From Deuterostichococcus epilithicus (taxonomy: Eukaryota > Chlorophyta > Trebouxiophyceae > Prasiolales > Stichococcaceae): DNA of 64,000 bases. Below are positions 20,616 through 63,800 of the stretch, piece by piece (position 1 is the stretch's first letter; every line of letters begins with the position of its first letter). The notes beneath the pieces were generated by a model that did no database searches, was not told the DNA's origin, and worked only from the letters and a program-made list of their open reading frames with translations. Position numbers and translations under genes: made by a program. The stretch covers positions 2,604,001-2,668,000 of the forward strand of contig JAVTLE010000016.1 of NCBI GenBank assembly GCA_033439295.1. Reading direction: 5' to 3'.

Positions 20616-22805
20616 ATGGCTGACTATAGCGGAGCAGCCTCGCCGTTGCGGCTCAGTGCGGTCTCATCAGCCTCACCCAACGGACGGCAGACGCAGTCTC
20701 AGCGGATGGGCGGTAGCAAGCATGCTGCGTGCAATGCGCAGCGGCCCAGAAACCGCAACTGCTGCGGCACACGGCAGTCCATGGCAGCCTTTAGTGCCTC
20801 GGCGGTGGCGGCACTGCTTCCGCTGGCGCTGCTGCTGATGCTGGCTGCCTGCCAACAGGGCGCTGCTGCAGCACAAGACGGCCGGCGGATTGCTGGGGCC
20901 GAGGTCGGTAGCAACAGAGTCAGTGCCGGCAGTCCGGCTGGCAGCCGCAGACTGGCGGCGCAGGAGGCAGCTGCGGCGGCGGCGCTGCAGCAGGCTGCGC
21001 AGGCGCAGCAGGGCGACCTGGCAGTCATGGACGAACCTCCAGCGGAAGCCACAGCCTCGGCAGCGTCCTTCAACGTTGCTACAACTACAGAAGGCAAGGC
21101 CGCCAATTTGCCCATGTCGGCGGCGGCAGCGGCCACTTCAATTGCAGGGTTTTCTGGCGGCAACGCCACAGCGCACGCCGATGCGGGCCGCAGGCGGCCG
21201 TTGCTGGTGGCCTCAGCAGGCGATGCCGCGGCGTGGGCGGCGCTCGTGGCACTGGACCCCAAAGATGCGGCCGGCAACGAGTTGCCGGTGCCAGGCACGT
21301 CAAGAGGACGACGCTTGCTGGGCCGCGGATTGACAGAAACGGAAACAGGCGGCGGAGTGACGCTGTACTCGCCGCAGCAGCGCGTCAACCAGGTTGCGGT
21401 GAGTGCCTGTGCCACTTCAATAGAGCTTCCAGTCTCGCTTGGTTGCGCCTCGCCAGCGGGTTTGACACAATCACCCACACACCGGACTCTTACAATTCGT
21501 GGTCAGAACTAGGCCACACCACGCATGCCACCTGTTACAAACTGCTCAACACACATTTTTCTATTGCCTCATGCGTCAAAATTGTGACGACATGGTATCC
21601 GCTATCACTTATGCGCCCTTTGCCCATACATTTGATGCCTTCAGAACCTTCCCAACTCAAACTTCAGTTGTCGTTCCGCAGACGCTGTTCTTCAAGGTCG
21701 ATTTTGGCGGGCCAACGCGCAATAAGCAGCCTCTGGACCTGTTCACCATCATCGGCACCAACAGGTGAAAAACAATGCCCTGGTATGTCCTGTTGCCGGC
21801 ACCATGCTGATGCTCTGTCGGCTTTTGGAGGGGCTCATGGAGCAGGTGTAGTGCCATTACAGTCGATGCTGGTGTTCATGATGTTCCGGCCACCTCCATC
21901 TCGATGCTGCGTTGGGAGCGCGTGACGTGACGTGAGACATGAAATCAGATCATGGCATCCGCCTGGCGTATGCTTTCGTCGCCTTCCCTGCAGGATCAAC
22001 GTGGTGTTTGACGTCAACGAGGGCATCGTCTATCTGTCAGCGGCGGTGCCCAATGAAAAGCGCCGCGCGGACGTAATTCTGACCATCTCCAGGGACCGCC
22101 TGGGTGAGCCTGCAGTTTGGGCAAACCGGGCACTCGTTGAATATAGTTCATTCTAGCCCCCATCTCATCAAGAATGGAACGTTTTGCTTTGCACACAGTG
22201 TCACGGGCTGCTTTCCATCGCATGGGAGGTGCTGCAGCCAGATGGCCGAGGTGCTTTCAGGGGATGTTCCTGGGTAACACCCACATGTCGCTGAGGTGAC
22301 GTCAAGCCTTGCGGCGCGCCTCCAGGCAAGGAGATTATGCCGCCGGTGGCTCTGGACCTGCATTACGTGCCGAAGAACGTCCCGCTGCAGCATTACGGCC
22401 GCTTCAGCGCCTTCTTCCTGCTGGCCGTGCTCATCATAACTGGGTGCGGCGGGCGCCACACCTTTGAGGCGCCTCGCAGACACCTTGCCTCCACAGCTCC
22501 TGCACGCTTGCTGAGCATGCCGCTGACTGCTTCACAACATGTCGTCGTCTGCTAACTACTGGAGAGGGCTCCGCATCCCAAGCACATCCGGTGCGGGCCC
22601 GTTCCAGCAAGGATGCTGTTGCTCAGATCCCACTCGCAGCTGCGGTTGAGGGGTTGCCGAGAGCACATCAGCAGGTGGTTGTGTGTTGGATATCCGTGTG
22701 ATTTTCCTACAGTAGAAACATGGATTTTCCATCATGCAGGCTGCTCGCCCTGGCCGAGAGCTACTTCACCCCCAGCGGCGACGTGGGGGACTTTGACTAT
22801 GTTGG

Positions 22806-22840
<35 letters not shown>

Positions 22841-25800
22841 GCTTGCATGGGCGATCACTTCCGGGCGGGTCACGCTCTGGAAGCGGCTCGGGGGCCTCGG
22901 GTGCGCACGCCCTACTACTGCTCAACTCTTTGTGGGTTTTGGTATCCGCATGGTCCGTCCTTGCTACCATGGCGCGCATCCCTGCAGCGCTCTCAAATGG
23001 CAGACACCCGGCAGCCGCTCCTGCGCATTTCTTAGGCTACGTTCTTTGCAAGCTTATCGTCCGCTGCATGACCCTGCCGTTATTCCCCTTTCTGCAGCCT
23101 CCAGCCTGGGCATCGGCATTCTGGGCGCAGTCTTGGCGGCACAGACCATCTATGTGAGCGGCTACCTGCCGGGGGTGCCGCCCAACTTCCGGGATGTCAC
23201 CCGCGAATTCAACTGGTGGTCCGGCAACATCAGGTGCGTATCGAGTCGTGATATAAGACAGCACCAATAATGCAGAGCACTTTTTGCACACAACTGTGCC
23301 TACACGCACCGTATAGAGCGACCACTATCGCTGAAAACCTGCAAGTGCGGTTGCAACCGTTGAGCTGAAGCTGTAGTTGAGTTTTGAGGGTAAGTGTGGG
23401 CTGCATGGCTGCCGACACCGCCTGCAAAGCGATTTTCTGGTGCAGCAGTGGAGCAGATAACCATAAACTTGAGGGACCGCTGGCGTGCTTGGTTCAAAGC
23501 TCAGTTAGGTTGTAGGCCCCAGCAAAGGTTTGCAATGTGCTCAGTAGACAGTCGCTGCCCTGGTGCTGCAGGGTGCCCGTGTTCCAGAGCGTCAGCGACT
23601 TCGACACCCCGGTGACGGCAGGCGAAAACGCTGCCTTCGTTAACAACACCGGGTTCAGCCAGCCCGGGCTGCTCATCGAGACCCTCGGCATGGACCCCAC
23701 CACATCGTTCTACCGTGAGACCATTCACCTCGCTGGCCGACTCCTCCTCAAAAGTCGCGACGCCACACATCTGCAAGCCGCAAGCCATGATCACGGACTA
23801 CCGTCCGTCCACCAGCAACACAGCATTGGCCGGCCGCTCATATGTGCGGCAGTCACAGCGCTTTTGTCGAGGCTTGCACCTATTCTCCAAAGCTCTCCAA
23901 GCGGCCGTTTGGTTCAGCACATTGTGCACGTGCCACGTGCACCGCAAGGCGCTTGTGAACCATAAGTACAGCGACCGAGAGAGATGCACCTTGAGGAAAT
24001 GCGCTTACACTGTGAATGCATGACGCGCTACTGCAACATCGTACCTCATACATTCCAAGCATGCTGCTGATTCGCTGCTTGCAGCCTTCCCGGCCGGCAA
24101 CATCACAGGCCCGCCATCCAACACCGACAGCGCAACTCGGCCTGCGGGTGTGCAATCGCTGCATATCCCTTCCTCCCAACACCCTGCCTTGTTGAACAGC
24201 TTTACTTGCTCTGCACACTTATGCTGACTGGACACGCTACTAGCAGCATCAGAGGCTTTGTCATATTGCAGCTGACAGTGTCCATCCTATTGTGAGGTGA
24301 CCTGTGAGTGCAGGCTGCAAGCTCTTCTGTGCATTGCCGTCGTGTGCGTGCTGCAACTGATGGGTCCGAGCTGCTGCTTGCAGTGGTTGCTTTTCCTGTG
24401 CCGCTAGCAGAGGTGCCGTCCGCCAATGTCACGGCAGTGTCTTTCATCAACCCCGCTGCAACGCCGTCCGCCAACCTGACAGCGGTGTCCCCGGGTGACG
24501 CCCCACTGGCTGACTCTCAGACCAACAGCGCACCTGCGCCCGCACCAATAGCGGCGCCCGGCCCTGACGCTCTGTCGCCAGCCCCGCCCGTCGATTCCAT
24601 CCCGCCAGCGGTGCCAACACAGGATGCTGCCGCGCCGGCACCCGCCCTCCTGGATTCTGCTTCGGCATCGGCTCCTGGCGAGCAGGCGGCGGCAGCCCCA
24701 GATGAGCAGCCAGCGACTGCACCGGCCGAGCAGCTGGTATCAGCGCCAGTCGCGCAGCTGGCGCAGGCGCCAGCCGAGCAAGCGGTGTCGATGTCAGTCG
24801 AGCAGCCGGCGCAGGCGCCAGCCAAACAGCTGGTTTCACAACCGTTGGCCGAGCAGCCGGCAAATGCGCCTGCTGAGCAGCCACCAGTGGCAGCAGCCGA
24901 GCAGGCGGCACAGGAGCCTGCTGCTCTCGTGCCGCCGCAGCTGGCGGCCTCCATGCTGGCTTTGCCGCCTGAAGGTGCTGTTGCGCCAAGAGGACCGCTG
25001 GCGGCGCCGACGCCGACTGCAGCGCCAAGCACTGCCGCCCCGACGCTCATCGCAACCCCCACTCCGACCGGCAGCCCTGCGCCGGCAGCCGTTATGACGC
25101 CTGGCGGACCCAGTCCCACAGCCGCGCCAGAGCCTTCGCCAGTGCCCAACCAAACGCCTAACCCGATGGCGTCTATGCCTGCGGCAGCACCCACACCGAC
25201 TGATGCCCCGGCCCCCGCCGCAGCCCCAGTTACGGCGCCCAACATTCCCACCGAAGCCCCACCTTTGCCACGCGCCGCGTCGCCCACTACATCACCGACG
25301 CCGGCGCCGCAGCAGCGCACAAGCGATGGCACCGCTGATGGCTCAAACACCTTCGCCTGGCAGGGCAAAGCTGTGACGGTCAGCCTGTCGGCAACAGGCG
25401 GAACGTACAGCGGCGACCAGGGCAGGAAGCTGCTCTCAGCACCCGGCGACTTTCTCACCGCTGCGTCAGCCGCTGCAGGTTTCATCAGCATCGCAGCAAC
25501 CAGCCTGGATTTCGTGGAGTTCATCTACGACATCCCGCGGCTGGAGGGCGGCAGCTCGGGGTTTTTCTTCTTCAATGGTACCGCGACCGCTTTGCCCGAC
25601 GTCCGGCGGAGAGCGCTACGGGGCATCGCACAAGGCTCTGATGATGAGCTGCAAACCACAAGTCCATGGGATGAGTTGACAGCAGAAGACTCGCCGCCGC
25701 CCGCGCCGCCGCCAGCGCCGCCGCCGCAAGCACACCCCACACCGGCGCCGACTGCGAAACCGACCACGGCGCCGACGTCTGANCCCACCTCAAAACCAAC

Positions 25801-28800
25801 AGCGGCACCCACTCCAGCCCCCATGCAACAGCCCACAGGTAAGCCGGCGGAGGCGCCCACAGAAGCGCTCACCTCGCAGCCGACGAGCGTACCCACCGCA
25901 CGGCCCACAACAGAGCCAACAGCAGCGCCGACCAAGACGCCGACCTCCAAGCCCACCGAGGTGCCAAGTGAGGCGCCGACCGAGGCGCCCACTTCACACC
26001 CTACAGCTTTGCCCACCCACGCACCCATCAACGCGCCGACCGTGGCGCCCAGTGAGGCGCCGACCGAGGCGCCAACTTCACATTCAACAGCTTCACCCAC
26101 TAAGACTCCCACCGACTCGCCGACCGAGGCTCCCACTCGACGACCGACCTCTTCTGCAGCTACCGCAGAGCCGACCACGGAGCCGACAACCGAGCCCACT
26201 TCCGACATGACGTCCGCGCTGTCACGGTCACCTACAGATACACCAACACCGACGCCGCACCCGGCTGCTGGCGATTCTGAGCTGGTGCCGGCTCCAGCAC
26301 ACTTTGACCGCGCGAGCAAGCAATCGGATAGCAGTGCTGATTCGCCAAACCATGCCGACCGTGCGAGCCAGCGGGCGGCTGCCGCTGGCGCTGGTGCCGC
26401 GGAGCTTACCTACACCATTGAGGGCTATGCCGCTGGCGACTCCCCCGGCCGCGACAAGGTACCAAGTCGTCAGGATTCGAGGCGAACGCCTTGTCTACTG
26501 GCCCGCCTCGCATTTTGGTTTGTAATAGTCTTAGCTTGATTGTGCAACTGTGACGGCCTAAGCTTGATTACGAAAACTTGGCTTGCCTTGACAATCGACC
26601 TACATGCGGGCTTCCTGCTTCTGCAGATCAGGCTGACACTGGTCGACGGGTTGGGTGCCGTAGTGTGGTCTGTCAGCAGCAACGGCAGCGCCACTTCAGG
26701 CACCCGCGGCCTGTCTCTACGCCGGACAAGCCGCACTGCGCCGCTGCTGCCATCGCCGCCTGGCGCCACGCTTGCGCCCACAGACGTCCCTACACCGGAG
26801 CCTTCAGCGGTGCAGAGGCCTGATTCAGTTTCGCCGCTGCCATACCCGCCTCCACGTCACACGGGAACAGACGCCTCAACAGCGTCCCCCTCGCTGCCAC
26901 TGCCTCAGCCTCCCCCACCCTCGCCATCGCCGCCGCCTCCTCCTCAGCCGCCCTTGCCAGTATCGCCATCCACATCACCTCCTAGCCCCAACCTGCAGCC
27001 AGTGGCCCCCCTGTCGCCGCCTCTGCAGCCNCCATTGCGGCCACCTCCCAGCCCTGCGCTGCNACNGTNATCTGAGTTGCCGCCTNCGCCCCCGCAATCA
27101 CCACNNCCGCCACTGCCNTCCATCTCTNCACTTCAGCCTTCGCCCTCAAACCCATCGCCTCCTCCGCCCCCGCCGTTGCCGCAACCCCCGCCGCCTCCCA
27201 GCCCTCCCCCACAGCCGCTGTCTGATTCGCCACCATCGCCCCTGCCATCACCGCCGCCCCCGCCACCGCCCAGCCCTCCCCGCAGCCGCCGCCCAGGTCG
27301 CCGCCTCCGCCTCCGCCATCTCCTATTTCTATTATACAGTTTCCACCAAGCCCTCCGCCGCCACTGCCGCCTCCTCCCTTGCCGCCCCCTCCGCCGCCAC
27401 CAAGCCCGCTGCCGCAGCCACCTCCCCCTTTGCTGCCTCCTCCGCCGCCACCAAGCCCGCCGCCGCNGCCGCCGCCCCCTTTGCCGCCTCCTCCGCCGCC
27501 ACCAAGTCCGCCGCCGGTGCCGCCGCCCAATCCGCCGCCGCCGGTGCCGCCTCCTCCGTCGCCGCCCCCTCCGCCGCCACCAACCCCGCTGTCGCAGCCA
27601 CCTCCCCCTTTGCTGCCTCCTCCGCCGCCACCAAGCCCGCCGCCACAGCCGCCGCCCCCTTTGCCGCCTCCTCCGCCGCCACCAAGCCCTCCGCCGGTGC
27701 CGCCGCCCAGTCCGCCGCCACCACATCCGCCTCCCCCTCGCCGCCCCTCCGCCGCCACCAAGCCCGCCGCCGCAGCCGCCGCCCCTTTGCCGCCTCCTCC
27801 GCCGCCACCAAGCCCTCCGCCGGTGCCGCCGCCCAGTCCGCCGCCGCCACATCCGCCTCCCCCTCGCCGCCCCCTCCGCCGCCACCAAGTCCGCCGCCGC
27901 CACATCCGCCTCCCCCTCGCCGCCCTCCGCCGCCACCAAGCCCGCCGCCGCAGCCGCCGCCCCTTTGCCGCCTCCTCCGCCGCCACCAAGCCCGCCGCCG
28001 GTGCCGCCGCCCAGCCCTTTGGCGCCACAGCCGCCTCCCGCATCGCCGCCCCCTCAGCCGCTACTGAGCCCGCCGCCGGTGCCGCCGCCCAGCCCCCGCC
28101 ACTGCCGCCTCCTCCTCGCCACCCCCTCCGCCGCCACCAGGCCCGCCGCCACTGCCGCCGCCCAGCCCTCCGCCACTGCCGCCTCCCCCTCGCCACCCCT
28201 CCGCCGCCACCAGGCCCGCCGCCGCTGCCGCCGCCCAGCCCTCCGCCACTGCCGCCTCCCCCTCGCCACCCCTCCGCCGCCACCAGGGCCGCCGCCATTG
28301 CCGCCACCCAGTCCTCCGCCACTGCCGCCTCCCCCTCGCCACCCCTCCGCCGCCACCAGGCCCGCCGCCGCTGCCGCCACCCAGCCCTCCGCCACTGCCG
28401 CCTCCCCCTCGCCACCCCTCCCCGCCGCCACCAGGCCCGCCGCCATTGCCGCCACCCAGTCCTCCGCCACTGCCGCCTCCTCCTCGCCACCCCCTCAGCC
28501 GCCACCAGGCNCGCCGCCGCTGCCGCNACNGGGGCCGCCGCCGCCCCTCAACCAGGGTGCCCTGGTCGGACAGGCATTTGATGCTGCGACTGGCTCTCCA
28601 GTCATCAGCACCGCGCTGCAGACGGTAAGTGGCGCTGGCACCTGCAAGTTGGCTACTTGGTAATTGAACCATCTATCACCCAGCCGGGCTTGTCATCGTC
28701 AGCTGTGGCTGCCACTGTGCAAAACCGTGTTGACCGGCAGCCTCGTTTGTTGACTGTATGTCATCAGGCCACAGACTTGCAATGCACATGGTTCGTTGAT

Positions 28801-31800
28801 ACGGGAGAAACCTTAGAAATGCTCCTGCAGCTGCCCATGGTTGGGAGGCGGCGCGCACTGCTGGTGACATCGCAGGGCGTGGTGCAGACTCAATTCGTGC
28901 CGGACACGGTGCTGTTGACCGGCACTCAGTCGCAGGGGCTGCCTGATCTCAAGGCCACAGCCTTTGCTGAAGTGCAACTGGTGCCATTGGAGTGCGCGCT
29001 TTCTCAGACCCTTGCAGCCTCTGATGTTGATGACATCTTCCATGATGAAGCATGGACTTGCGCTGGGACATGTGCTGGTCTGTCTCACAGAAACGGCAAC
29101 GCAAGACGACCCGCGTTGGCTGTTGCCATGCAGGGTTTCGGGTGCCAGTATCACCATTGCTGGCACAATGGAAGCTTTTGGTACGGACATTGTTCTCGAA
29201 AACGCCCAATTCTTCACGTTCCTGCTGAACATGGTCATCGGTGAGTGCACTTGCGTTCCCCTCTCCGTGCCCTGCCTCACCAGCACGTTGACTGCCGCCC
29301 ACAAGTCAGCAGCGCAGTGTGTAGCCACAACATTCGTATATGGAGGACGGTTGAATGCCATTATGACTACAGACTTTGAGTTACACCTTTGCAGACATAG
29401 CGCCACTCTCTTCTTGTGTTCGGCCCCATGGGAGACGCCGGCTGCCAAACAAATCACAGCGACATCAGCCATGAAACACACGTCACCTCGGTCGCGGCTG
29501 CAGATGCCGATGGAGGTTCAACCTTCGATGTGGCCGTGACGGAGATACCTCCGGAGTTTGCGGACGATGCCTTCGTCCCGGTGCCGGTCACCATATCGGG
29601 AAACGGCGGCACGGGCCTGGCCTATTATCCGGGCGGCGCTGACTTTTCCAACCTCACCACCTGTATCCCGGTGACAATACTGGCACTTGGCTGGCACCAT
29701 CCATCACTTCCACAGCCTTTTGTGCAAGCAATTGTGCGTTGGGACCAGAGTCAGGTTGGAGGTTTGACGTGCCAGTCAAGAAGCCCCGTCTTTTCAAGCG
29801 ACAGCGGGCTTTCACATATGCACCAATTGTCGCATGGTGTACTAGGGCAGCGAGTTGCTGCTGGTGTAGGCTGGCAAGAGAGGCAAGAATGCGCACAAAT
29901 GTTGCTGCTGTGGTGACACGGGATGCTGCGCTGCAGGGCGTTTTCTTTTGTGAATTATGCACATCCCGCACAGACACCTGCAGTCAGTGCCAATGGTGCG
30001 GGGGTCCTTTCCTATTGCCCACATCGTCCCAACACTGCCTGGTGACCTGGCTTTTGCTGCTGTGTGTCCCCAGCCACTGCCGACCGTCCCGTTTCGGTTC
30101 CCTACGCAGTGACTACATTCTTGACCCCTTCTCCTCATTGTGCTACCCGGACCCTCTGGGAGCTGATGGCGCCAACCCCTGCCCACTTCCTCCTACCTTA
30201 CGGCGGCGGCTGCTCAACCCAGATCTGACATCACCAGCAGCTCGGCAGGCACGGGCCTGACAAGATCATATGGACATGTTGCGCCCTTGGTTTAGGCACG
30301 TTGTGCATCCCAAATGCAATACATCACAGGGTGCCTTCGGCAACCTGGCAGGCCTACTTGCTCTCGGACAGGGCAGTTGATGCCTGGTTACAAATTGCTT
30401 GCCACGCGCACTACGTTGCCAGCAGGTTGTATCGATGGAAGGCACTGCAAGTCCAAGCCTACAAGCGCACGGCCGTTCATACACTGATGTGATCCTGCTT
30501 CGTGTGTGCAGCCAGCTGCAACCGCAGCGACAGGCCCAAGCACCAGTGCCACTGTCCGTGGCAACATCACAGCGGCGCCAGTGCGCAGGCTTTCGAAAGC
30601 CCACCGCATCATTCTCGTGTGCAATGCGACGCGGATACGCGCAACGAAGTGCCCGCATCATGGCTGCTTGTCGTCACACCTACTCGCCAGGACTACTGCA
30701 CAATCATTATTTAGTTTGGGTTCCAGCATGGCTGGTGTTCACGCTTCTACCTTGACCACCCAATTGTGCAGGACACTGATGCTGCCCAGCAACTGGGCAT
30801 CCAGGCGGTCATCCCGGCAGGTCCGCACAAGACTTATGTGGTGCTGACGGCAGTCAACGCTTCCACTGGCAGCTTCACAGTGGTGCGTGCATGTTAATTA
30901 CTTTCTTGTGTGTAGTATGGTGTCAGATGCTGGTGTCGAAACTTTCGACTCGAAAGCCAAATCCATCTTGCAGAGCTCCCCCTGCCGTCTAGCGCACTGT
31001 GGTCTTTGGCCACCAGGTGGCATGGGCAGATGAAGCAGCAGTACTATGGCAAACTTGACTGCAAGCTGCCACTAGCGGCTCGTCTCTTGGTTGCGCGATG
31101 TCAGCTATCTGCCCTACAGTCGCCTTGTCACTGCCTCCAAAAGCCCCGAACTTCCGCAGGCGCTAGACGCCCTGGCGAATCTCATCCCCGGATCCGTGCA
31201 GGTGCGGGACGGGAGCGCTGCCAACGTGTCCATGGGCGGTGCGGCTGCACCTGCCGCCTACGCCGCCAGCAGTGTGGGCGCTGCTGGCGGTGCTGCCGGG
31301 CCCACGGTGACAGCAGACCTGGCACCCGGCGCCTCGGCCTCACAGAGCATCGCTACCATGGTCATCGGCCAAAACAGCCTGAACTCCGTCAATGACCTGC
31401 TGGCGGTGTTTGGAAACACTGGCAGCAGCCGTTTCTTGCACAAGTGAGTACGGTAGCTCTGCCCCGTTGTTCCATTCTGTCGGAGGTCTGCCCTAACTGC
31501 ATCATCTCTATAGCAGCGCTCGCTTGCTTTTCAATGCGAGGCGCAGCTGTGCAGTGCTCAGCTGCCGCATCAGCAGGGCAGTCTTGCTATGTGCATTCCA
31601 TCAACATTGTCAGCCAGCAGTGCACTTGCCATTGTGCGCAAAACATGTGCCGGATGCAAGCAGCATGCCGGACACTGCACAACGCCGCGAGCACAATAGG
31701 AGAGGACCCAACACCCAGGGTCGCTTGGAATGTCAGGAAGGCTCGTTGAATCAGGGGCACCTGCCACCTGACTTCAGATCGTGTCATCAAAACTCGTGTG

Positions 31801-34800
31801 GCAGGGCGGCAGAGATAGCCTTTTGGATGGCGGTCCTGGCGGTGTCGTGCGTCGTGCTGCACGTCATGCTGATACTGGGCTTCCGCTGCTTCCATCGGCA
31901 CCCGCCTGCAATCCTGGAATTCCCGCGCCTGGAGCTCTTCATGCTGCTGTGCATGGTGAGCAGCATTGTTGAGGAGCAACAGCTGCTGCAGAGTCGTCTC
32001 AATGTGGCGGCATCTGGCATGCGGGATGCTTGCACGCAGAACTGAGTGACTACTTCATTCCAATCCCTCTTGGCTGATGGCAATGCCTTTTACATGGTGC
32101 AGGTCCAGCCAATAGCCCAGTGCGCGGCACGTGAGTCTTTCCTACCCTTGCTGCTGGACGTAATTTGAGTATATTCTCCCCCTGCTTGAGGGCGCTACTC
32201 ACACAACTCGATGGCGCTGAAATTGTGGGGGTGCAACGGTTCGAACCATTGGTTTCGAACCAAAAACTATTGGGCAGCTTCTTGGGGTCATGGATCAATG
32301 TCTCGCCAAGCACTTAGGCGGTTCCTGCATGTTCAGATGATGGTCATGCCCTGGCCGGCCTTTGGCAGGCTGCTGCGGGGGACTGCGGATCCTGCCCTGC
32401 TGCAGGCATGATCAGGGCGCTTCAGAAATGCGGCTGAGAGCAGGATGGCTGACCCTTTTCGCGATGCCCACCGCAGAGCTCATTGCGTCGGGCAGCCATG
32501 GCGCCATGATCGGCGGATGGTGAGCATAGGAAGTCCTGCATGCCTATGCATCATGTCCCGTGCAGCGCACAAATGTCAACCAGCTGCAGTCAGTGCCACG
32601 CGGCTTGCGTAGGTGCATTTTCGTGCTGGGTGTCCTGGGTTTCCTGGGTTTCGGCGCCTGGACGGTGTTCAGGTCGGTGCATCACCACAGTATGCGCAAG
32701 GCACGCTGGGTGCTGCCCGCCATCGAAGACCCCAAGGTGGGTGGCACACATGATAAAGTGTAGCAGTGCCTGCCTGCTGTTGGCGCCAGAGCTGCTCGGC
32801 GAATATGTGTCACAGTTGAACTGGCCGCCGCCAGAGTCAGATGCCTCTGCAGCTGCTCTTCTGCACAGCTCACCTAGGACGATCTCTTCCAAGATTCGCT
32901 GTTCAAGAGCAAAAGGCTATTTGATCCCAACTGCATAGGCGGTTCAGGCCGCAGGGATGCGCTGGTCCACTGGTACCAAGAGCTATTTGTCGCCATCGCA
33001 TCCTTGCTCGGCGAATGACCCCCACGGGGCCAGAAACCCCGTGGAAGCCTTGCAGACCGCGACATGACCGTGACCTTGTGCACGTGAACACACAGCCGAA
33101 GCCGGGCTTCTTCGGCAAGGTGTGGGAGCGCTGCGTGGCGCGCCCCATGGCGGGGAAGCCCCTGCCCGAGGCGGAGTGGCTGCACGTGGACGAGCACAAG
33201 CACCTGCGCTTCCTGGAGCGCCACGGCGCCCTCTTCGAGGACAACAGAGGCAGCTCCCTGGCTCCTAGTTGCATCACCAGCCACAGTGCATCTTTTGAAA
33301 TGCTGCCGGGCAGTTCTTTGTTCCGCAATCATTTGATGCCCCTGCTCCATCCTACACGGTGTGCACCGATCCAGCAAGACTGTCTGACCCCTCAAAGGTG
33401 TCCTTGCAGCCCGTCCCGTCCGCATGCTGTGCTGCCACGCCGTGCCCTTGCCAGCGTGCCAAGATGCGCATAATACGGAAACCAGCAATTCAGCAGCACG
33501 CTCCCGACTCCAGGGCCGCCATACCGGTATGTGGTGGCGAGCGAGGACGGCACACCGCGCTCCGGGTCTCTACTGTTAGACGACCCCAAGCTGGCCGTCG
33601 CCGCCCAGGTGCGCCTAGCGCCGCCCTACCACTGGCAGGATGTGTCTGCCGTTCGGAGGTGCCTTGAAAGCACAGGCTAAGGTGCACCGCGCAAGGTTGT
33701 GGTGCATGGGTATGATTGCAGACTGCATAGATGCACAAGATTTGGGGCTGGGCCCGCATATCTGCTGGCCGTGCACAGCCGCTGCCTGGAGGTAAACAAA
33801 AGTCTAGGTCCTGTATGCAACACGCTCTGTCTGTCAAGAAATTCGCCATGCTGAAGCACATTGCGGCTGTCTTCGCTGTATGTAGGAGTCTGTGTGCACG
33901 GCGCAGCTGACTGCCCAGCCGGATTTTGCCGCCATGACCGACAGCCAGCGCCACGAGCACCTTCAGCACTACGGGTCTCAGGTACATCTGACACATTGCC
34001 GCCTGCTGCTCTCCGAGCTCCTGTCCCATGGCTTGGCAGCAGCCATGAGACGGACAGCTCCGGTGCAGGGACGCATGTACGGGCATGTTGTTGGTAATGC
34101 AGGCTTGAAGAGCAATGACGAGCTCCTGCAAAATCATTACACCTTGGACCAGTATGTGTCGCAAAGCACGATTGACTGACTGCTGTTCGCGTTGTAGGGC
34201 AAGGCCATTCCTGCTGCCCTGACCACCGCCATCAACACCTCAGCAGGAAGCGGCAGCCGTCTTGGCCTTGCCGCCTTGGCCATGCTAAATGCCTCGGCGG
34301 GGAGCGCAGCCACCGAATCCTTTGCAGCCGGCTCAAGAAAGGGACCGGCCTTCGGCGCTGATGGCAGCAGGGGGGGCAGCACACACGACGCAGCTGCCGC
34401 CTCCACCCCAGCAGACGCGGCAACCGCCGCCTCTACGCCGACGCCATCCGCGCATTGCGGCGGCAACACCTCATTCAAGGCAGGACGAAGTTCAGCGGCC
34501 GCTAATTCCGCTTCTGTCGCACGGTCCGATGGCTCTGGCAGCAGCGCAGGCAGTGACCCGCTCCGTACGGCACACCTGTTCGGCACCTTGGGAGGTGGCG
34601 CGGGTGGCGCGACAGCAATCCGCATTGCGAGCGGCAGCGCGAAAACGCAGTCCCTCGGCGGCAAGACGCTGCAGGCGCACATTGGCGACTCCGTTGACGG
34701 GTGGGTTCTGGCAAGCGGCCCCGCACATGTTGTCGATCGTTCAAGCTGCATTTTCTCGAGTTAAACTACTGTGATCGCTCAAAGCTGTCAGCCTTCTGAC

Positions 34801-37037
34801 GGCTCGGAGTGCCAGTTATCCTAAGCTGGGGCAGAATTGCATCTGATGACAGCCTGCTTTCGCATCAAAACAGCGGCCTTACTTCTGGAACCAGATCTTG
34901 CATAGCAAGCGCGCCCGGCCAGCCACAGCCTGCCACAACCGTGCGAAACCAAAAGAAAATCGCCTGATCAGTTTCTGGAATGGTTCGCCCTCTGTCAAAC
35001 TCCTGCAGTGGCACACTGGAGTTGGTGCCGGGCCGGCCGCTGACTACATTGTGCGGCGTGCCGCTGGGGTGGGACGAGCTACGAACGTACTCGACGTTGC
35101 TGTGGGTGCTGCGCACTGTCATCGTCGGCTACATCATCATCTCGCTGTCTGAAAAGGGTGGCTTTGGCCCGGTGCGCATACTCGAATCCCTGTTGTAATC
35201 GGCTTCTGAAATTGAGTCTGCATGCTGCAGTGTTCCGGCTAAACCTTGCTGCAGCGCGACTGATCTGGAAACGAAAGTGTCAGCTGGCGCTAGGAATTGA
35301 AAGGGGGGCACAGCCGTTACCAGCGAGTGTACTGATTCCAATCCTGATCCCTGGTGTCTGGCGGTGACATCAGGCACAAGTGCTGCTTCACTGCTGGATG
35401 TTGTCTGATATCGACCTGGTGCCTGCCCACCGCAGGTGGTGCTGGTGGTCATCGTCGCACTGCTGTGGCTGTCCTACAGCCGCCTGCTGCTTCCCATGCA
35501 CGACCGCCTGGAGCAGGTGACTCGCCTGGCCAGAACCTTCATGCGCTAATTTGTGTAAACACTTCCCCATTGTGGGTCGTTGAACTCCTTGTGGCCCTGT
35601 CGGGTTTGCTGATCACATTCTCCATCTGCATTCGACTTGCGCAGCGGCGAACAATTTGCTCTGCTGAGCCAAAATCATGTCCTGCTGAAAGATGGCACCC
35701 AGCTCGTCCGTGGGACCAACTGCTGCTGCGCACTGCGCCATGCGGTGTCTGCCCTGCAACGGAGACTGCCGCACTGCTGTGCATCATTGCCTTGCAGCAT
35801 CTCCCCTGGCTTGAATGCTTTCTCCCACGGCCAGCTCATGCTACTGTCTTTCGGATTGTCAATTGCGCGGTATCAGGCTGACCGCACATTGGCTGATTGC
35901 AGGGTATTGAGGTGTTTGCCGCCGCCGGCGACACCGTCACCTTCGCTTGCGCGCTGACACTGCTGATTCTATCAACATCGAGCGTCGAGTACACACTCAT
36001 CATGGGGCAGCTGATGGTCGCCTCACAGGTGCCCTGTCTGCCACTGCGCCCTCCTCGTTACTCTCTCTCAAAGTCTGTCGTAAACGCGCACCTGAGGACG
36101 TCAACACCTCAAGCGAGGTCGAGAGTCGATGCATGTGCATACGTACGTGGTTCTTTCTGAACTGCTTTTGTGAAGTTCGTTCATTCATCTTGTCATACTG
36201 CTGCAGGGAGCGGCCATCTGGCTGGCTATCATAACACGGCCCATCACCTGGTGGCCCGTCATCAAGCTGCACATTGCGCCCCGCCTGAGGGTGTTAATGA
36301 TCGGCACCACCATCGTGCAAGTCGGCGGCCTGTCGCCATCGGCGCACGCACCCGGCAGCGGGCACCTGGCTGATGACAACGACAGCGCCGTCGGCAGCAG
36401 AGGCGGCAGTCGTGGCGGCACAAGGGTCTTGGGCCTGTCGCCTTCCGGCTTCTTGGCACTCGCGGCCAACAGCAATGGCAGCCGCCACGGTGGCACGTCC
36501 GCGGCGGGCAGCGCTGCAACCAGCCGCCACTGCGCGCCTCGCAGCAGCGGCGGTGCTGGCAGCCAGGTCGGCACCGGCAATGTCGCCGGCAGCGAAGGCT
36601 CGACTCGCGCAAGCCGCCTAGGCCCTGCCGCCAGCCCATTTGCTCTGTCGCAGTCTGATGCCTCAGCAACGGCGGTGTCGCTTGACATGGATCCGGATGC
36701 TGGTGATGACAGCTTTGCAGGCGGCGCCACAGCAGCGCCCACGGCGCAGACGCACACGATGGGCGACGCCAAGGCTGTCCCGCGCAGCGCTTGGCCGTCG
36801 TTCATGCAGCAAAGCCTCTCCTTCTTCAGCCGCCAGGTCAGTGGCGACTGTGATGCAGGCGGCGGCCCAGCTGGAGCCGTCGCTGCCGGCACAGCATCGA
36901 CGCCTTTGGAGCGGCGTGGCAGCATTGGCAAAGTCATTGCAGCAGTGGTGGGACGCCGTAATAGCCAGGACACTGACGAGGGGTTGCCCGTCTCCCGGCT
37001 GCCATCGGGACCCGCCTCCATGCCCGGGAGGCCATGA
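20616..37037 (+). CDS. Gene A: giant polytopic membrane protein with split TRP/Flc-like core and Pro-rich ectodomain
   Basis: Exon 1 (20616-21398) carries a signal peptide (LLPLALLLMLAAC; ATG 20781 sits just before it) and ALDPKDAAGNELPVPGT. Exons 21682-21764 and 21994-22103 form a beta-rich domain (FKVDFGG; FDVNEGIVYLSAAVP). Exon 22326-22443 has TM FSAFFLLAVLIIT. Exon 23098-23233 has TM LGIGILGAVLAAQTIYVSGY, then FRDVTREFNWWSGNI. A huge Pro-rich part follows (24411-26458 and 26627-28624) with an unknown domain (TFAWQGKAVTVSLSATGG to SGFFFFNGTA). More ectodomain exons run to about 30.9 kb. From 31.2 kb come LNSVNDLLAVFGNT and the membrane core: FRCFHRHPPAILEFPRLEL, CIFVLGVLGFLGFGAW, LLWVLRTVIVGYIIISL, VVLVVIVALLWLSYSRLLLP, and IWLAIITRPITWWPVI. 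A Gly/Ser-rich tail ends at 37037. The TRP/Flc assignment is inference from motif style. Reading-frame breaks and Ns occur in the Pro-rich exon (27.0-28.6 kb). Confidence 0.75.
24540..26290 (+). repeat. Pro/Thr/Ala-rich low-complexity coding repeats of gene A
   Basis: The frame encodes EQPA/AEQ-type repeats (24.68-24.92 kb), then PTPTAAP-like repeats to about 25.3 kb. After the TFAWQG domain come PTSKPT/PTEAPT-type repeats (25.69-26.28 kb). Such segments are usually extended, O-glycosylated spacers in algal wall proteins. There is an ambiguous base near 25.78 kb. Confidence 0.8.
26880..28560 (+). repeat. Poly(Pro/Ser) PPPPSPPP tract of gene A with frame breaks
   Basis: CCG/CCA/CCC/AGC-rich DNA encodes PPPPSPPP and PPPQPP runs, typical of pherophorin-like hydroxyproline-rich spacers. 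The Pro-rich reading changes frame repeatedly, for example near 27.28 kb and several times between 27.73 and 28.2 kb. Ns cluster at 27.03-27.13 kb and near 28.51-28.53 kb. Slipped or collapsed assembly is the simplest cause. The frame that enters the next domain (LNQGALVGQAFDAATGSP) is the same one that began the exon. Confidence 0.8.
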
Positions 37038-54852: not shown

Positions 54853-57800
54853 TCAGCGGCCGCTGCCGGGCGCCTGGCGCCGCATGCCGCCCAGGCGCCC
54901 GCTGCGCATGCTGCTGCGCAGCCCAGTGTGCAAGCTGCCGAAAAAGCTGCCGCTGGCGGCGCCGCGGCCGGAGCCGTGGGTGGCGGCCTCTGATGACGGC
55001 GGCTCGCGGCCCGACGCTGCGCCGCTGGCGTCCCGCCTGACGGAGCGCCGCAGGAAAGCGCCGCCATTCAGGGCACCAGCGCCCATAAAGAAGATCTTCA
55101 GGCGCGGCCCCAAGCTCAGCCTGATGATGGGCCACCAGCCCCACGGCCGCGTGATGATGTACAGCCAGATTGCGCCGCCCTGCAGAAGGATTGAGTTTGA
55201 ACAGGCGTCAGGCGGACGGGCAGTGTACGCGGTGTGGGGGCATGTGTTCGAACCCACATCGATGGTGGAGGTGGTGGGCTGCTCTCGTCAGCGCCAAGGC
55301 ATGGCGTCAGACGGAATGCCAAGGCGTCCTCCGCTGCAGCTGCAGAGGCAGGTGCAGCTGCACTGTACCTGGCTGCAAGGTGCCAGCAAATGCAGCGCCC
55401 AAGTTCACCCACCATTGACGCAGCCATGAGGTAGCCTATGATGAGATTGTATTCGACACTGGAGACCGGCGACAGCACCAGCGCCAGCGCGCAGGTGAAG
55501 GTGACCACGTCACCGGCCGCCGCAAACATCTCGACGCCCTGCGACACGAGGCGGCAGGTGCAGCTGAGCCGGCCAGCAAGTAGAAGCTATTACAGACTGC
55601 GGTGACCTGCTGTCGTGCACTCTCAACTCCTCCGCAGCTGAGCATGCGAGGTAGGCGCAAGACAGCAGCCGAGTGCCCGACCACGACAGGCACGGCTCAA
55701 CGTCAAAGTCAGGCTTGGTCATTGCGGCAGCACACGATGCGCCGCGGACGCTGTGACGGGTGCAAAGTAGCAGCATCAGCCATGCAGCCGTCAGGCCAGA
55801 GTCCTGCAGCATGACAAACAGCAAACACGGCCTTTCCGATGCGGCACACCTGCTCGAGACGGTCGTTCATGGGCAGCAGCAGGCGGCTATACGTCAGCCA
55901 GAATGCCGCCAGCACGAGGATTGTAACAATCTGCGCAGCATCAAATCAGCATCATCCGTCTGCCGCCCTGCTTTGTGACCATCAGCGGCCTGGCTTTTCA
56001 TTGTCGCTTTTCACATTCAAGCAGGTTCAGAGGGCTATCAGGGGGCTTGCAGCAGTCCCACCCATCCAGCATGCATCCGAGTGTGACGCTGATTCTGATG
56101 CAGAGATTGGCTAGCGGTATGTTGACGGGGCGCACCCCGGCAATGCCGCCCTTTGTGGACAGTGAGACGAGAACGTATCCGACCACCATGGTCTTGCCCA
56201 CCCACAGCAGCGTCGCGTATGAGCGCAGCTCGCCAGCGCCGATCGGCACGCCGCGGCCGATGTAGAACAGCGGCCGCTCCGGCGCCAGCTGCAGGTCGCC
56301 AACCCTGATGGACAAGGGTTGGCAAAGCGGTCAGCAACTCGTCATTGCATCATCCTTCACAGGTCGCAGCTGAGGGAGCAGATGGGAGCAGAAGTGGCGA
56401 TGCGTTGCTGTGGTGCAAGACCAGCAACACTCGAGCCCAGTGCAGCTCTCAGGAGCGGCTTTGGTCACAAGGCGGCCCTCTTGATTGTGCACCAGGCATT
56501 GTTGATGGTCGTAGCTGCAAGCTGTACAACCCAGCCAAACGAGCGAGCCACAACGAACTGAAGCGCCAACGCTCAGCAAAGCTCACCCAATGCGCCCAAT
56601 AGCGTGCTGGCGGCGGCTGTCGTTCGTCTCGCCGCCGCGCACGTGCCGCTGCAAGCCAAGGATGTGCGCCGTGCGAAGCAACTGTGGGCCGTCCCCGGTG
56701 GGATCACCCATGACATCTGACTCTGCTGGCTGCACGGTGGGTGGCGGATCCTCTCGACCCTGCAGTGCATGCCAGAGTAGTGGCATCCTTGCGGGGCAGG
56801 CATCGCACAGGCAGGACGCTCTGCAAATCCTACAGCAGGTGCGTGCTGCCCGCAGAGTCCGAGCAGGTTGTGAGGTTTGGGTTGAAAGTAGCTGGAGTTG
56901 GGGGCAGCAGTCTGGCGGCAATCAAGCGCAGGGCGACTGGCGCACCTCGGACTGCATCCAGGCCCGCTCCCGCTGCTCGGCTGCACTCATGTTGCTTGCC
57001 ACGGACGCGCCTGCGAAACTGACGCCCCGCTGCCACCGCGAGCTGTGCAGGGACTCTCGCGCTGCCAGGTCGGCTTTGGGATCGTCACCCGAGGTCGAGG
57101 AGCGGTTGTTGCTGGCGTCAATGGCAGTGGTGCCCGCCTCGTCAGCCACCCTGAAGCGGTAGGGCGGCCCTGCAGGGGGGGCGCAAGACGCTGCTGAGGC
57201 GCACCTGGGGCAGACTCGCAAATGTCCTGGCCGACGCACTTGTTCGTTGTCGCATCGCCGCACAGCAGGGGGCAGAGGTCAGCTCTTTCAAGCCGCTGTC
57301 AGATCAGCAGTCTGACGGTGCAGGCTCCGCCTGCATATGACGCGAGAACCGGATCGTCAAGGGACTCGCAGCAGGGAGAGGCATGAAGCCGCGCAGTCAC
57401 CTTTGTTGTCCTCGAATAGTGTCCCATGGCGCTCCAGGAAGCGCAGGTGCTTGTGCTCGTCCACATGCATCCATTCCGCCTCCGGGTATGGCTTTCCGGC
57501 CACCGGCCGTATGACACAAACCTCCCACATCCGGCCGAACCAGCTTTGCCTCGGCTGCGGAGGCAGGACGAGAAGGAGCGGCTTTGAGTGGAACTCATGC
57601 AGACACATCCAATTGGCGGGATCCGTGGCTGTACTCAGGCAGTCGTTATAAACATGAGCGAAGGGTGCAAGAGCTTGCGTAAGGACATGCACCGCGCTGC
57701 AGCAGCTGACATGTCGCATCACAGCAGCTGCAGCGGTTGACAGCATGTGGATCTCTGCCAAAGCGCTTGCCCAGCGATGCGGCAATGCAATGGCACCCAT

Positions 57801-60800
57801 CTCTGGTGATCTGCTGTTTAGGGTTTGGTCGTGAAAACGCATCCAAAGCGCTGTGGCAGCCAAGCAAGGAGGTTCACCAACAGATGAGGTACCTTGTACA
57901 ATTCGATGGCTGGCAACACGAACCGCGCCTTGCGGCTGTCCTCCCTGTGCACCGACTTGAAAACCAGCCACGCGCATATGGCCAGGAACGCAATGCAGCC
58001 AAAGACGAAGATGAAGATGCCGCCAATCCTCGCCGGTCTGCTGCCCGAGGCAATGAGCTCTGCATCAGGGGGCCAAAGTCAGTTGCGAGGGTGACGAGGG
58101 GCCTGGTGGTCAACCAGGCAGATCACATCTGGGGCAACATACTCAACATATTATAGAACAGCTAGATGAGAGGATACTCAATATGTTATAGAACAGCTAG
58201 ATGAGAGGATAGTGAGACAGCCAACTTGATATAAGAATCAGTTTATCTTTAAAGATAATAAAAATCGCACGCGCTGCGACCTGCCCGATGGGCATGACCA
58301 TGAACATGAAGAGGAAGAGCTCCAGGCGCGGGAACTCCAGGATCGCAGGTGGGTGTCGGTGAAAGCAGCGGAAGGCCAGCACCAGCAGGATGTGTGCGAC
58401 CAGTACCGAGCCCACCACCACCGCCGCCCAGAATGCAATGCGCGCTGCCCTGTGTGTGGGAAACCACCAGGTTCTTATGTCTCGACCCTAAGGCCTTGCA
58501 CTGCACTTCCGCCTAGTACGCTGTCCTTGTTTGCTGCGTGCGCCACTTCGACTCGAGCAATGCCCGACGGTCAGGTGCACTTTATAGCAATCATCTCTGG
58601 CACTGCGGAGATTGCGCATGCACACGCACCTTGCCAGGTAGGCGCTCGCGGGCGTATTGCCAAAGACGGAGAGGAGGTCCGCCACTGAGTTCAGCGTGAC
58701 AGTGCCGATGGCGGACTGCGCCGACGCCGTCGTCGATTCCGCCGCTGGCCCCGGCCCGGCAGCGCTTGCTGCCGGGGCTCCGGGCCCGGGCGGCGACGGC
58801 CCGGCGCGGCGGCAGTGGCGGGGCTGTTGGGAGGGCTGGCGGCAGCGGCAGCCGCTGGGCCGGCGCGCGGACTGGGCACCGAGGCGGCTGCCGGCACCCC
58901 ACCCGGCTGCCGCTCGACCGACAGGGCACCAGTGGCGGGATCGGCGAGCAGGCTCATGACGATGAAGGTGCGGTGCGGCTCTGCTGGTGGCGCGACGTCG
59001 AGGTTGAGCTGCGAGATGGCCTCCCGGTCCTGCAGTCGCGGCGGCAGCTTTGCATTGCATCATCAATGTGTGGAGGTACTTCTATTCTGTTGAAGTTGCG
59101 GCGGCAGCTTTGCATTGCATCATCAATTTGTCATTAATCTGTTGAGGCATTGCCATTCTGTTGAAGCCCAGTACATGGCCCAGCAAATCAAGCTCCACTT
59201 TCCCACGTTGTCGCTCGTGTGGTTCGGGACAGACGCATCTTCCCTTGCATTGGCCTCTGGGCTGAAGGGCTGAAGGTTGCGTGGCAAACTCACCGAAAAA
59301 GTCCCCGAGGTTTTAAACCCTAAGTCCTTCAGCCCTTGGAGAGGCCAATGCAAGGGAAGATGTGTCTCTCCCGAACCACATGAGCGACAACGTCAACATT
59401 ACGGGATCCTGTTCACGTCAACGAGCAGCGAGCGAGGGGGCTTGCCAGAGTGGTGTTGGCGGTGGACTCGGGCGCGGCTGCGGCAGGCGAGGCATACAGC
59501 GCCACCTGTGCTAGGACCAACCACCTTTAGTCTGTCACCTTTCACAAGATAGCACCCAAGTCGCATCATTCTGACAAGACTCGCAGAGCACACCGCAGGG
59601 TGAGGCATCTGAAGGCAGGCGGGGAGGGAGTAATAACATGTGGGCAAGCACCTGCTGCTGATGCCCGGACTGGCGAGTGTCGAAGTGCCGGCGGGGAGCC
59701 GGCGTTGGCGCCGGTGCGTGCGGCATGCCCTGCTGCCGCAGGCGGCGCCGTCCCTTGGAAGCTGGCGACGGCGACTGGCACGATAGCCCCTGGCTGTCGG
59801 GGTAGCACAGCCCGCTTTGTGGGCTCTGTGGGCACAGAAGGCAGCACATGGCGGCTCGGGAATCTTGGGTTTGTTAAACAAATGCCGCTGCTGCACACAC
59901 GCCCGTGGTATGTACGCAGAATAGGTATCATCCTGTTGGGTGCCTCATCAGGGCTTGCGTCGCTCGGTGTGAAATCGGCGACAGCTCCCAGAAGGTACTG
60001 GGTACAAGGGTCATGCATCCTGGCCATAGGGTGAGACCAGTGGGAGCAGGCTGCGCAGCTGGCAATTGGGCAACAGTTAGCAATCGCACCAGGAGCCAGC
60101 CACACTGGCAGCTCGTGCAGGTGAATGGGTCGCTTGGACACGATGCGCAGCCCCACATTCCCTGCGATCCAAGCATCCCCGGTCAACGGTCAGCGTCAGC
60201 GTGAGAACAGAGCATCCGCCACCCGTTTTGCCGCCGCATGGCAATCCAGCATGCTGGGTGCCAGGCGTCTGCCCGCAACTGGCGCATCGGCGTCAAGACT
60301 CGAAGGAATCAGCCCCAGTACACAACGCTTGCAAGTCAGCGGGCAGTGAGCCAAGGTTTGCCTGAGTGCTGCAGGAGCCAACTGGAGTCTGGTCTGCCGG
60401 CAGGGCTTGGTAGAATAGAGTGTCCTGCATGCAAGGGAGTCACACTTCAATTTCGAACTTTCGTAATTCAAGAACAGTATCTGAGGCGGTCTGTGCACAT
60501 ATCAGTTGTAGCAGCTCAGTAACCTAGGAACTTGATTGCTCTGTGCGCGCAGCTGGACCCATGACGCCTCCCCCAACCCCTCCCCGCACCGTCTCATGCC
60601 CACAAAGAAATACGGCTGTGTGGCTCTGGTGATACGCTTCGCCCGGCTCTGCAGAATGCCGCTTGCTCGGGCCTGAACCCTACAGGCAAGCGAAGGGGGA
60701 CAGGTGGAACTCCGGGACTGATGCGTACCACGCCCCCCGATGCGGTGCCAACAAAGGCGGGATGGTCCTCAGGATCCTGCCCATTGAGGACCTGGTCAAA

Positions 60801-63800
60801 GCGGACGGACCACTCTGCGTTGTTGTAAGGGCACGAAGCGCCCGCTGCGCAGCCTCCTGCGACGCCAAGACAACACCTTCTTGAGCAACTGTACTGTCGA
60901 CAATCAGATGTACAGCGCACCTGCTCCCCATCCTCCGCCAACCTTGCTGGCTCACGAGGGCAAGGGAACGGTATACGGTCAACTGCTGAGGCGTATGATG
61001 GAAGGATCACGCACGAGACGCTGGGAGAGATTACGCCTACGGCACAGCACTGGGGCAAGCAGCCACCGAGGATGGTCCGCCGGGCGCGACAAAGGATGCA
61101 TGGCAGCTCTGAGAACGCTGCTGGCCAGCCTTGCGGCACAACTACAAGCTCAGCTGCCAGATGGTGCTAGGGTGGGGAACCCACCCGCGGTTAGGTTGAC
61201 ACTGACAACATGGGTGTAGTTCGTGGAATCGTAGTACTCGTCGACCTTTCCCGCCTCGGCAGTAAAGGACAGTGTCCCTTGCTGCGTGCCACCCTGCAGT
61301 GGCGAGTGCATATCATGTCACTAAGAGCACTACAAAGCAGCATCTGCCTTGCCAAGGCGCCAAGATCAGGTGGCCGCAGCACCGGGCAGCTGTCGGCATA
61401 GCGCTGAACATGGGGTGATCGACGAGCGGAGAACAGACGAAGAAGCAGGTGGTGAGCTGCGCAATTGCCTCAGAAACCCTGCAAAGGACCCGCACCGATG
61501 GATCGGCGCCAAATTGGATGTCGGTGGTTGTGAAGCGCAGCGCCCGGATGTCGGTGACCTGCGCACAGTGGGATGCGACACCGCGGAAATGCGTCAGGCA
61601 GGCTGCAGGTTGGTATCAGCAGGTCCACAAGAAGATGACAGCGGGGCACACTGGAGTCCACCACTCGAGAGCACTAGATACGGCCGCCCCACCTGCCAAA
61701 CCACAAGTGCTGTTGTAGCTGCCCCTGAAGCAGATAACTGGAGCTCCCCGGCAAAAAGGTGCCGCCCTGCTGTCTGCCATGCAGGCTTGAAGTGAAACAG
61801 GACAGGCACCTCACCCCGAGGCCCGTGATCGTGAAGGAGGCGTCAGGCAGCCCGCCTGCAGCCTGCAGCAGCGAACGGCGCCGGAAGCCGCCCCGTGGGC
61901 TGTTGTCGCCAGCGGGCAACTGCAGCGTCATGGCGGGGGTGAAGCCGCTGGCGCCTCCGCTGGTCACTGTGAGCACGTTCCAGCCGAGCACCGCGGGCGG
62001 GCCTGCAGTGCAGGGGTAGCATTTGGGCAGGTTGTATGAATGGAGCAGCTTTGCAGGGAATCGCTGATTGTGTCAGCTTGATGAGCCTTGAGAGCATCAG
62101 TGGTACAGAGGCAGAGGAGTACTTGACCTGATGCTCGCATGGCAGGATTCATAAAGGTTGCTGTCACAACTTCAGGAAGGTAGAGGGCTGGGGCTGCGCC
62201 CACAGCAGGGCACTCGCCTGGCGCGTCCACTGTGAAGGTTACGACCTGATCCGCGCTGCGCGCATACGGCGGAGACGCGGAGTTGCCATTGGTGACTCGG
62301 CACGACAGCTCGAAGGTGCCACTCGTGGTCAGCCCCGCGTACGTCATTGCCCAGGAGCCGTCTTCCGCCGTGGGGGTCGCCTGCACCAGAGTGCCATCAT
62401 TGGGGGACGTGCGCCGGCATCGAATGTTGCCGCCCGACAGCACCGTGCCACTGCCCGCCGGCTGGCCGTCCTGGACCACAGTCGCGGAACCCGGACCGCC
62501 GCTGACGGTGAGGCTGCCGCCATTGGGGATGTTGCCTGATGGCGCGGTGGCTGGCTGGCTAAGCTCAGCGGTGTAAGTGGGGGCGGGGGTTGGAGCATCG
62601 GTGGGGGCGTCAGTGGGGGCATTGGTGGGGGCGTCAGTGGGGGCGTCAGTTGGCGCATCAGTGGGGGCGTCTGTCGGCGCATCGGTGGGGGCATCAGTAG
62701 GGGCATCAGTGGGGGCGTCAGTGGGGGCATCGGTGGGGGCGTCTGTTGGCGCATCGGTGGGGGCATTAGTAGGGGCATTGGTGGGGCGTCCGTTGGTGCA
62801 TCGGTGGGGGCGTTGGTGGGGGCGTCAGTCGGCGCATCGGTGGGGGCGTCTGTTGGCGCATTGGTGGGGGCATCAGTTGGCGCATTGGTGGGGGCGTCCG
62901 TTGGCGCATCGGTGGGGGCATCGGTGGGGGCGTCTGTGGGGGCGTCTGTTGGCGCATTGGTAGAGGCGTCGGTGGGGGCATCAGTGAGGGCGTCAGTAGG
63001 TGCATTGGTGAGGGCGTCAGTGGGGGCGTCTGTCGGCGCATCAGTGGAGGCGTCTGTCGGCGCATCAGTGGGGGCGTCTGTTGGCGCATCGGTAGAGGCG
63101 TCGGTGGAGGCGTCGGTGAGGGCGTCGGTGGAGGCGTCAGTGGAGGCGTTAGTAGGTGCATTGGTGGAGGCGTCTGTCGGCGTATCGGTGGGGGCATCAG
63201 TGGAGGCGTCGGTGGAGGCGTCTGTGGGAGCGTCTGTTGGCGCATTGGTAGAGGCGTCGGTGGAGGCGTCAGTGGAGGCGTCAGTAGGTGGATTGGTGGA
63301 GGCGTCAGTGGAGGCGTCAGTGAGGGCGTCTGTCGGCGCGTTGGTGGAGGCGTCAGTGAGGGCGTCAGTGGAGGCGTCGGTGAGGGCGTCAGTGGGGGCG
63401 TCGGTGAGGGCGTCAGTGGGGGCGTTAGTAGGTGCATTGGTGGGGGCGTCTGTTGGCGCATCAGTAGGGGCATCAGTTGGCGCATCGATGGAGGCGTCAG
63501 TGGGGGCGTCTGTTGGCGCGTCGGTGGGGGCGTCTGTCGGCGTATCAGTGGGAGCATCAGTGGGGCGTCAGTAGGGGCGTTGGTGGGGGCGTCAGTGGGG
63601 GCATCTGTCGGCGCATTGGTGGGAGAATCAGTCGGCACATCGGTGGGAGCGTCAGTCGGCGCATCGGTGGGGGCGTCAGTGGGCGCCGCCGTGGGAGGCT
63701 CAATCGGCGAAGTGGTGGGGGCCTCAGTCGGCATATCGGTCGGGGCTGGCGNNGGGGCCTCAGGCGGCGCACCCGGNGGCGGCAGTGCGGTAGGCTGCTG

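Follow-up and report, generated by a model that had tools for sequence, protein, structure and literature searches.

We analysed a window of 64,000 nucleotides from the green alga Deuterostichococcus epilithicus (contig JAVTLE010000016.1; C14:2604001-2668000), which carries gene A, encoding a putative membrane protein with a very long proline-rich ectodomain, together with two related copies, B and C. The source genome comprises 46.8 Mb in 21 contigs and the G+C content is about 60%. Gene A is read on the + strand from an ATG at 20616 to a stop ending at 37037, in 30 exons whose splice sites were read by hand and with a spliced aligner (Table 1). The joined frame encodes 3,030 residues, with all exons in phase and no internal stop. 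All 29 introns end in AG; 27 of them start with GT and two with GC, after 30248 (the end of exon 15, 30110-30248) and after 33249. Copy B has GCAAGC at 49960, the site matching the second of these donors, so that the gene A intron after 33249 is best seen as a shared GC-AG intron.

Table 1. Exons of gene A and extents of copies B and C, in window positions
Feature	Position	Strand	Content
Gene A, exon 1	20616..21398	+	start ATG, signal-like hydrophobic stretch, low-complexity leader
Gene A, exons 2-4	21682-21764, 21994-22103, 22326-22443	+	N-terminal domain, then beginning of predicted membrane segment 1 (FSAFFLLAVLIITG)
Gene A, exons 5-6	22740-22900, 23098-23233	+	rest of segment 1, short loop, segment 2, motif PPNFRDVTREFNWWSGNIR
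Gene A, exons 7-9	23572-23714, 24085-24147, 24411-26458	+	ectodomain begins; Ala/Pro and Thr/Pro repeats, domain E1 (25322-25684)
Gene A, exon 10	26627..28624	+	end of domain E2, then SPPP/poly-Pro rod (frame switches, Ns; letters uncertain)
Gene A, exons 11-16	28831-28991, 29134-29240, 29504-29670, 29937-29995, 30110-30248, 30512-30580	+	modules M2-M4, Cys-rich M5-M6, short linker
Gene A, exons 17-18	30772..31443	+	juxtamembrane part
Gene A, exons 19-22	31805-31955, 32103-32130, 32477-32519, 32613-32736	+	predicted membrane segments 3-5 with RCFHRHPPAILEFPRLE
Gene A, exons 23-26	33096-33249, 33514-33608, 33886-33981, 34198-34700	+	long predicted cytosolic loop with LRFLERHGALFEDN
Gene A, exons 27-30	35009-35171, 35436-35516, 35903-36028, 36207-37037	+	predicted membrane segments 6-9, predicted cytosolic tail, stop
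Copy B	N part 39589-42575, membrane part 47726-53041	+	in tandem with A; extents of the aligned region
Copy C	55054..64000	-	predicted membrane segments 3-9 and part of the ectodomain; N part beyond the window (L002); extents of the aligned region

A hydropathy scan of the full protein A chain (cut-off 1.5) gave 12 peaks. The signal-like segment begins at residue 61, membrane segments 1 and 2 start at residues 352 and 422, and the motif NWWSGNIR follows segment 2 at residue 457. A stretch of 1,768 residues separates this motif from the start of segment 3; segments 3-5 start at residues 2241, 2277 and 2308 and are followed by an inner loop 332 residues long, after which segments 6-9 start at residues 2659, 2686, 2716 and 2745. 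The two weaker peaks, at 195 in the N-terminal domain and at 880 in the ectodomain domain E1, are read as not membrane. The order described by the first-pass annotation, namely two membrane segments with WWSGNI, a giant proline-rich ectodomain and then further segments, was thus recovered by hydropathy as two segments, 1,768 residues and seven segments. As judged from hydropathy alone, the chain has nine helices, an extracellular N-terminal domain and a cytosolic tail, and protein A probably resides in a membrane with this topology.

The ectodomain of A is built, in this order, of Ala/Pro and Thr/Pro repeats, domain E1, more Thr/Pro repeats, domain E2, a poly-Pro/SPPP rod, modules M2-M4 and the Cys-rich modules M5-M6. 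Up to exon 14 proline makes up 21.5% of it, with 29 runs of at least three prolines. Green-algal hydroxyproline-rich wall proteins, such as extensins and pherophorins, have small domains interspersed among SPPP and Thr/Pro rods. The long SPPP, TP and AP tracts of the secreted region, with their repeats, their proline content and the signal-like segment, give protein A the features of a hydroxyproline-rich glycoprotein, and its rods would be hydroxylated on proline and glycosylated. Extensins and pherophorins, being secreted or part of the matrix, lack the nine membrane helices that are predicted for the protein of this alga. Eight pieces of the N-terminal domain and ectodomain, some of them joined at provisional splice sites and with a few wrong letters, were scanned against Pfam; no piece had a match above a curated cut-off, and the scan brought up no pherophorin family. 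A DUF4232 match among these pieces (E 0.011) was below the cut-off and, like a weak cadherin-like match of the N-terminal domain (E 0.38), was taken as chance. An AlphaFold model of domain E1, made from two sequences, had a mean predicted local distance difference test (pLDDT) value of 40.6 and was set aside.

In the poly-Pro tract of gene A (26.9-28.56 kb) the Pro-rich frame switches repeatedly, and 13 of the 19 Ns of the window are found there; the assembly is therefore doubtful in this rod, and its exact letters and length are unsure. Both the switches and the Ns suggest that the repeat was misassembled or its bases miscalled. The reading frame used through the tract stays open. The rod of copy B likewise switches frame.

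A genome search with the helix-3/4 exon showed that gene A belongs to a family of at least seven copies (A-G), five on C14, the contig of the window, one on C1 and one on C11. Six of the seven are readable at both ends, copy D being seen downstream only, and all six have, on one strand, helices 1-2 upstream, then the ectodomain, then helices 3-9 downstream. This order, being the same in six of seven copies, makes the arrangement more than chance. In the spliced alignments, copies C and G had spurious end exons and the N part of D was alignment noise, and the concordant parts alone were used. Identity to A ranges from 44 to 88% in the C part (six copies) and from 42 to 77% in the N part (five copies). 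The motif exon and the helix-3 exon are separated by 2.6 kb in G and by 6.5-8.6 kb in A, B, C, E and F. The pattern of two plus seven hydropathy helices recurs in A, B, C, E and F, and D has the seven downstream ones. Besides A, B and C, a fourth of these copies lies about 0.1 Mb upstream on the same contig (C14:2527k). Between the halves of copy C, at 62577-63746, there is a long tandem array with periods of 24, 36 and 48 bp that reads as Asp/Ala-Pro-Thr repeats on the - strand. Relatives were also looked for in viral contigs, where none of 35 pattern matches was confirmed.

The modules of the ectodomain were compared across the copies with matches listed down to E 0.5. Domain E1 is present in A, B, C, E and F, and E2 in A-F, C having its second half alone. 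Modules M2-M4 occur in A, in E and, twice, in D, and M5-M6 in A, E, D and weakly in C; at this threshold no convincing match to M2-M6 was seen in B, F or G. Copy G, the most divergent, still has Thr/Pro repeats at the position of the ectodomain. Exon 17 is found in all seven copies (weakly in G) and exon 18 in A-F, and the membrane exons are more similar between copies than the ectodomain modules are. The presence or absence of modules, together with the shared helices, suggests that the core was kept while the wall-facing part was exchanged and resized; on these comparisons the predicted ectodomain is modular and variable between copies and the predicted membrane core is conserved. In copy D (C14:2510001-2530000; L023, L012) the M1-M6 block occurs twice in tandem, and about 10 kb of extra sequence, with more weak Cys-rich matches, lies between these blocks and the exon before helix 3.

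Among A, B, E and F the synonymous divergence (dS) is alike in the 5' and 3' halves of the gene for all six pairs (0.590 versus 0.643 for A-B; 0.368 versus 0.317 for B-E), and the ratio of nonsynonymous to synonymous divergence (dN/dS) lies between 0.247 and 0.341 in all 12 comparisons, as expected for halves that were duplicated together and are under constraint. The alternative, two adjacent genes for a two-helix and a seven-helix protein misread as one, could draw on the fact that the single-gene model is built from genomic sequence, and on a TGTAA, a poly(A) signal of green algae, at 26521 within intron 9. Gene A, however, has no TGTAA within about 3.4 kb past its stop, so that this signal says little about gene ends here. 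The 30 exons form a phase-consistent chain; order and strand are kept in all six copies with both ends readable, the parts being only about 2.6 kb apart in G; intron 9 splits E2 in A, but D and the draft model of C have this domain in one piece; and a second signal peptide has no candidate, there being no hydropathy peak from residue 880 to helix 3. Since the in-phase chain, the order conserved in the copies and the matching divergence agree, we consider two separate genes highly improbable and a single gene very likely. The proposal of the first-pass annotation that a membrane core and a wall-like ectodomain belong to one gene therefore holds well, given the in-phase splicing, the seven copies and the matching divergence of the halves.

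Taken together, the best reading of these data is a wall-tethered, possibly tension-sensing membrane protein that is Flc-like in topology. The protein would sit in the plasma membrane with an extracellular N-terminal domain, nine helices and a cytosolic tail, and helices 2 and 3 would be joined by an extracellular loop some 1,770 residues long, made up of hydroxyproline-type rods and small domains. These rods would be embedded in the cell wall or bound to it, and where wall and membrane move apart they would pull on the helix bundle, which may then act as a tension-dependent channel or receptor, by analogy with what is reported for fungal Flc/Pkd2. We put forward this nine-helix protein with a wall-bound rod loop and a tension-dependent bundle tentatively, as the leading candidate; wall binding and tension gating are both inferred. 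A more specific version, in which the protein is an Flc/Pkd2-type mechanosensitive channel with a wall glycoprotein inserted between helices 2 and 3, present in at least seven copies, each of them matched through interchangeable modules to a different wall component or stiffness, is possible but leans to the unlikely side.

Pkd2 of fission yeast is a member of the Flc family. PMC11277609 describes it as activated by membrane tension and as having, besides a membrane domain of nine helices, an extracellular domain that putatively binds lipid. Fungal members carry PF06011 and mostly ML/TRP_N (PMC10732042 and PMC9600462), the latter being missing from some of them (PMC9600462). The protein of the alga resembles Flc/TRP proteins in its extracellular N-terminal domain, nine helices, cytosolic tail and spacing of three helices, loop and four helices, as far as hydropathy places these in the alga; it differs in having no match to PF06011 or ML and in the long inner loop that joins helices 5 and 6. 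For comparison, a hand-entered fungal Flc-type sequence served as a control (hereafter the control Flc), and it matched PF06011 over positions 39-417 with E = 3.4e-151. It has a WS-G type motif after helix 2, as the alga does, and also shares with it the three helices, inner loop and four helices after the outer loop. From the motif to helix 3 it has about 105 residues, whereas the alga has 1,768, and the alga would therefore have expanded a loop rather than introduced a new split. The contrast drawn by the first-pass annotation with contiguous Flc segments has to be amended accordingly, the loop of the alga being indeed far longer and the segments of the control Flc being separated all the same.

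Aligned with hhalign to the control Flc, the alga profile had its best local match at the WWSGNI region, with 31-32% identity and P values of 0.039 (whole core) and 0.024 (N part); the score was reached by 10 of 250 window-shuffled controls for the core and by 6 of 250 for the N part. The reversed control Flc scored 14.6 with the N part, versus 22.5 for the real sequence. Nine segments, chosen with the hypothesis in mind, were also compared one by one: helix 2 with the motif, helix 5 and the end of the 5-6 loop were each reached by 1 of 60 shuffles, and the remaining six by between 11 and 25. When the segments were permuted, 7,077 of 362,880 orders did as well as the matched one; with the motif segment removed, the figure was 3,573 of 40,320.

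Several results weigh against an Flc-like channel core. The TRP relation proposed by the first-pass annotation was to be checked by a hidden Markov model match to PF06011, and this check failed: none of 29 genome-derived sequences matched at E <= 10, the 29 being overlapping queries from the same seven copies (four trimmed spliced cores, namely A, C, G and the C part of D, seven C parts, eight pieces and ten motif segments). Two hand-made consensus sequences gave no PF06011 match either, and among solved structures the best match was no better than E 0.38. The hhalign probability of the motif match was 1.3% for the core and 2.0% for the N part, and with the whole core the reversed control Flc scored 22.5 versus 23.5 for the real one. 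Membrane part 3-9 by itself gave no signal, its score being matched by 109 of 250 shuffles and exceeded by the reversed sequence. As to topology, the inside-positive charge excess is modest (16 Lys and Arg in 128 residues of the predicted inner loops versus 7 in 90), and in copy G helix 4 reaches 1.49, under the 1.5 cut-off, and three extra hydropathy peaks appear in stretches of unsure splicing. The N-terminal region gave no match to ML/TRP_N (PF14558 or PF02221). An exon-by-exon PF06011 search of the genome found no match, and carries little weight, as 14 control genomes gave none as well. Matches of the helix 1-2 segment to Pertussis_S1 and 8xMP (best E 0.017) were under the cut-offs where these are given and were taken as chance, and a made-up 90-residue hybrid of alga and Flc letters that matched PF06011 (E = 2.4e-7) is no evidence, the real segments of six copies being without match. 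The sequence similarity between alga and control Flc is weak (P 0.02-0.04) and suggestive, no more; the core may share descent with Flc, and the TRP/Flc relation is not established.

Other functions can be considered for the same topology. The protein could be a wall-bound seven-helix receptor or adhesion protein with helices 3-9 as its core and helices 1-2 as an added anchor, signalling or only holding the wall without conducting ions; the succession of ectodomain, seven helices and cytosolic tail fits this layout, and no channel family was matched in the Pfam scans of the core. The same scans matched no seven-helix receptor family, however, and the longest inner loop falls between helices three and four of the seven, which is unusual for such receptors, so that we regard this as unlikely. 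A transporter or a purely structural tether between wall and membrane, with the rods as a scaffold for instance for wall building, would account for rods of wall-protein type and for a multi-copy family with a variable ectodomain. It appears quite unlikely, as the membrane exons are constrained and more alike between copies than the modules, which exceeds the need of a plain anchor, and no transporter family was matched in the core scans.

The nearest published parallel that we found, Chlamydomonas MST3, suggests yet another possibility, a polycystin (PKD2) domain that is split like that of MST3 and has the ectodomain instead of the S1-S2 loop. In MST3, hydroxyproline-rich rods are attached to a PKD2-like domain, and incomplete PKD domains together with large extracellular regions occur in seven more Chlamydomonas proteins (PMC11015965). 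The Pfam scans of our core gave no PKD_channel (PF08016) match, seven helices follow the ectodomain where five would be expected, and the N end is predicted outside, all of which makes this possibility very improbable. MST3 and its relatives do resemble the tethered nine-helix protein that we favor in combining hydroxyproline-rich rods with a channel-like membrane domain, in several proteins with varied ectodomains. In MST3 the ectodomain is N-terminal to the PKD2-like domain and helix S1 is supplied by another protein, SIP, whereas in the alga the ectodomain lies inside the predicted helix bundle and no PKD match is seen in the core scans. MST3 thus already provides a known case of a rod on a channel-like domain (PMC11015965).

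In our searches of open-licence papers, we found no rod placed within the helix bundle of a nine-helix protein. To our knowledge, how walled algae sense wall tension at the molecular level is largely an open question. A protein whose helix bundle itself contains a wall-type rod would directly qualify as a candidate for the link between wall and membrane, and the copies, sharing a core and differing in the ectodomain, would offer ready-made comparisons. If the core is Flc-like, that family would be extended to a form with a built-in tether.

Elsewhere in the window, the translations of 10558-10734 and 14841-15017 are 36% identical over 59 residues, and the two stretches give the impression of paired leucine-rich or F-box-like genes.

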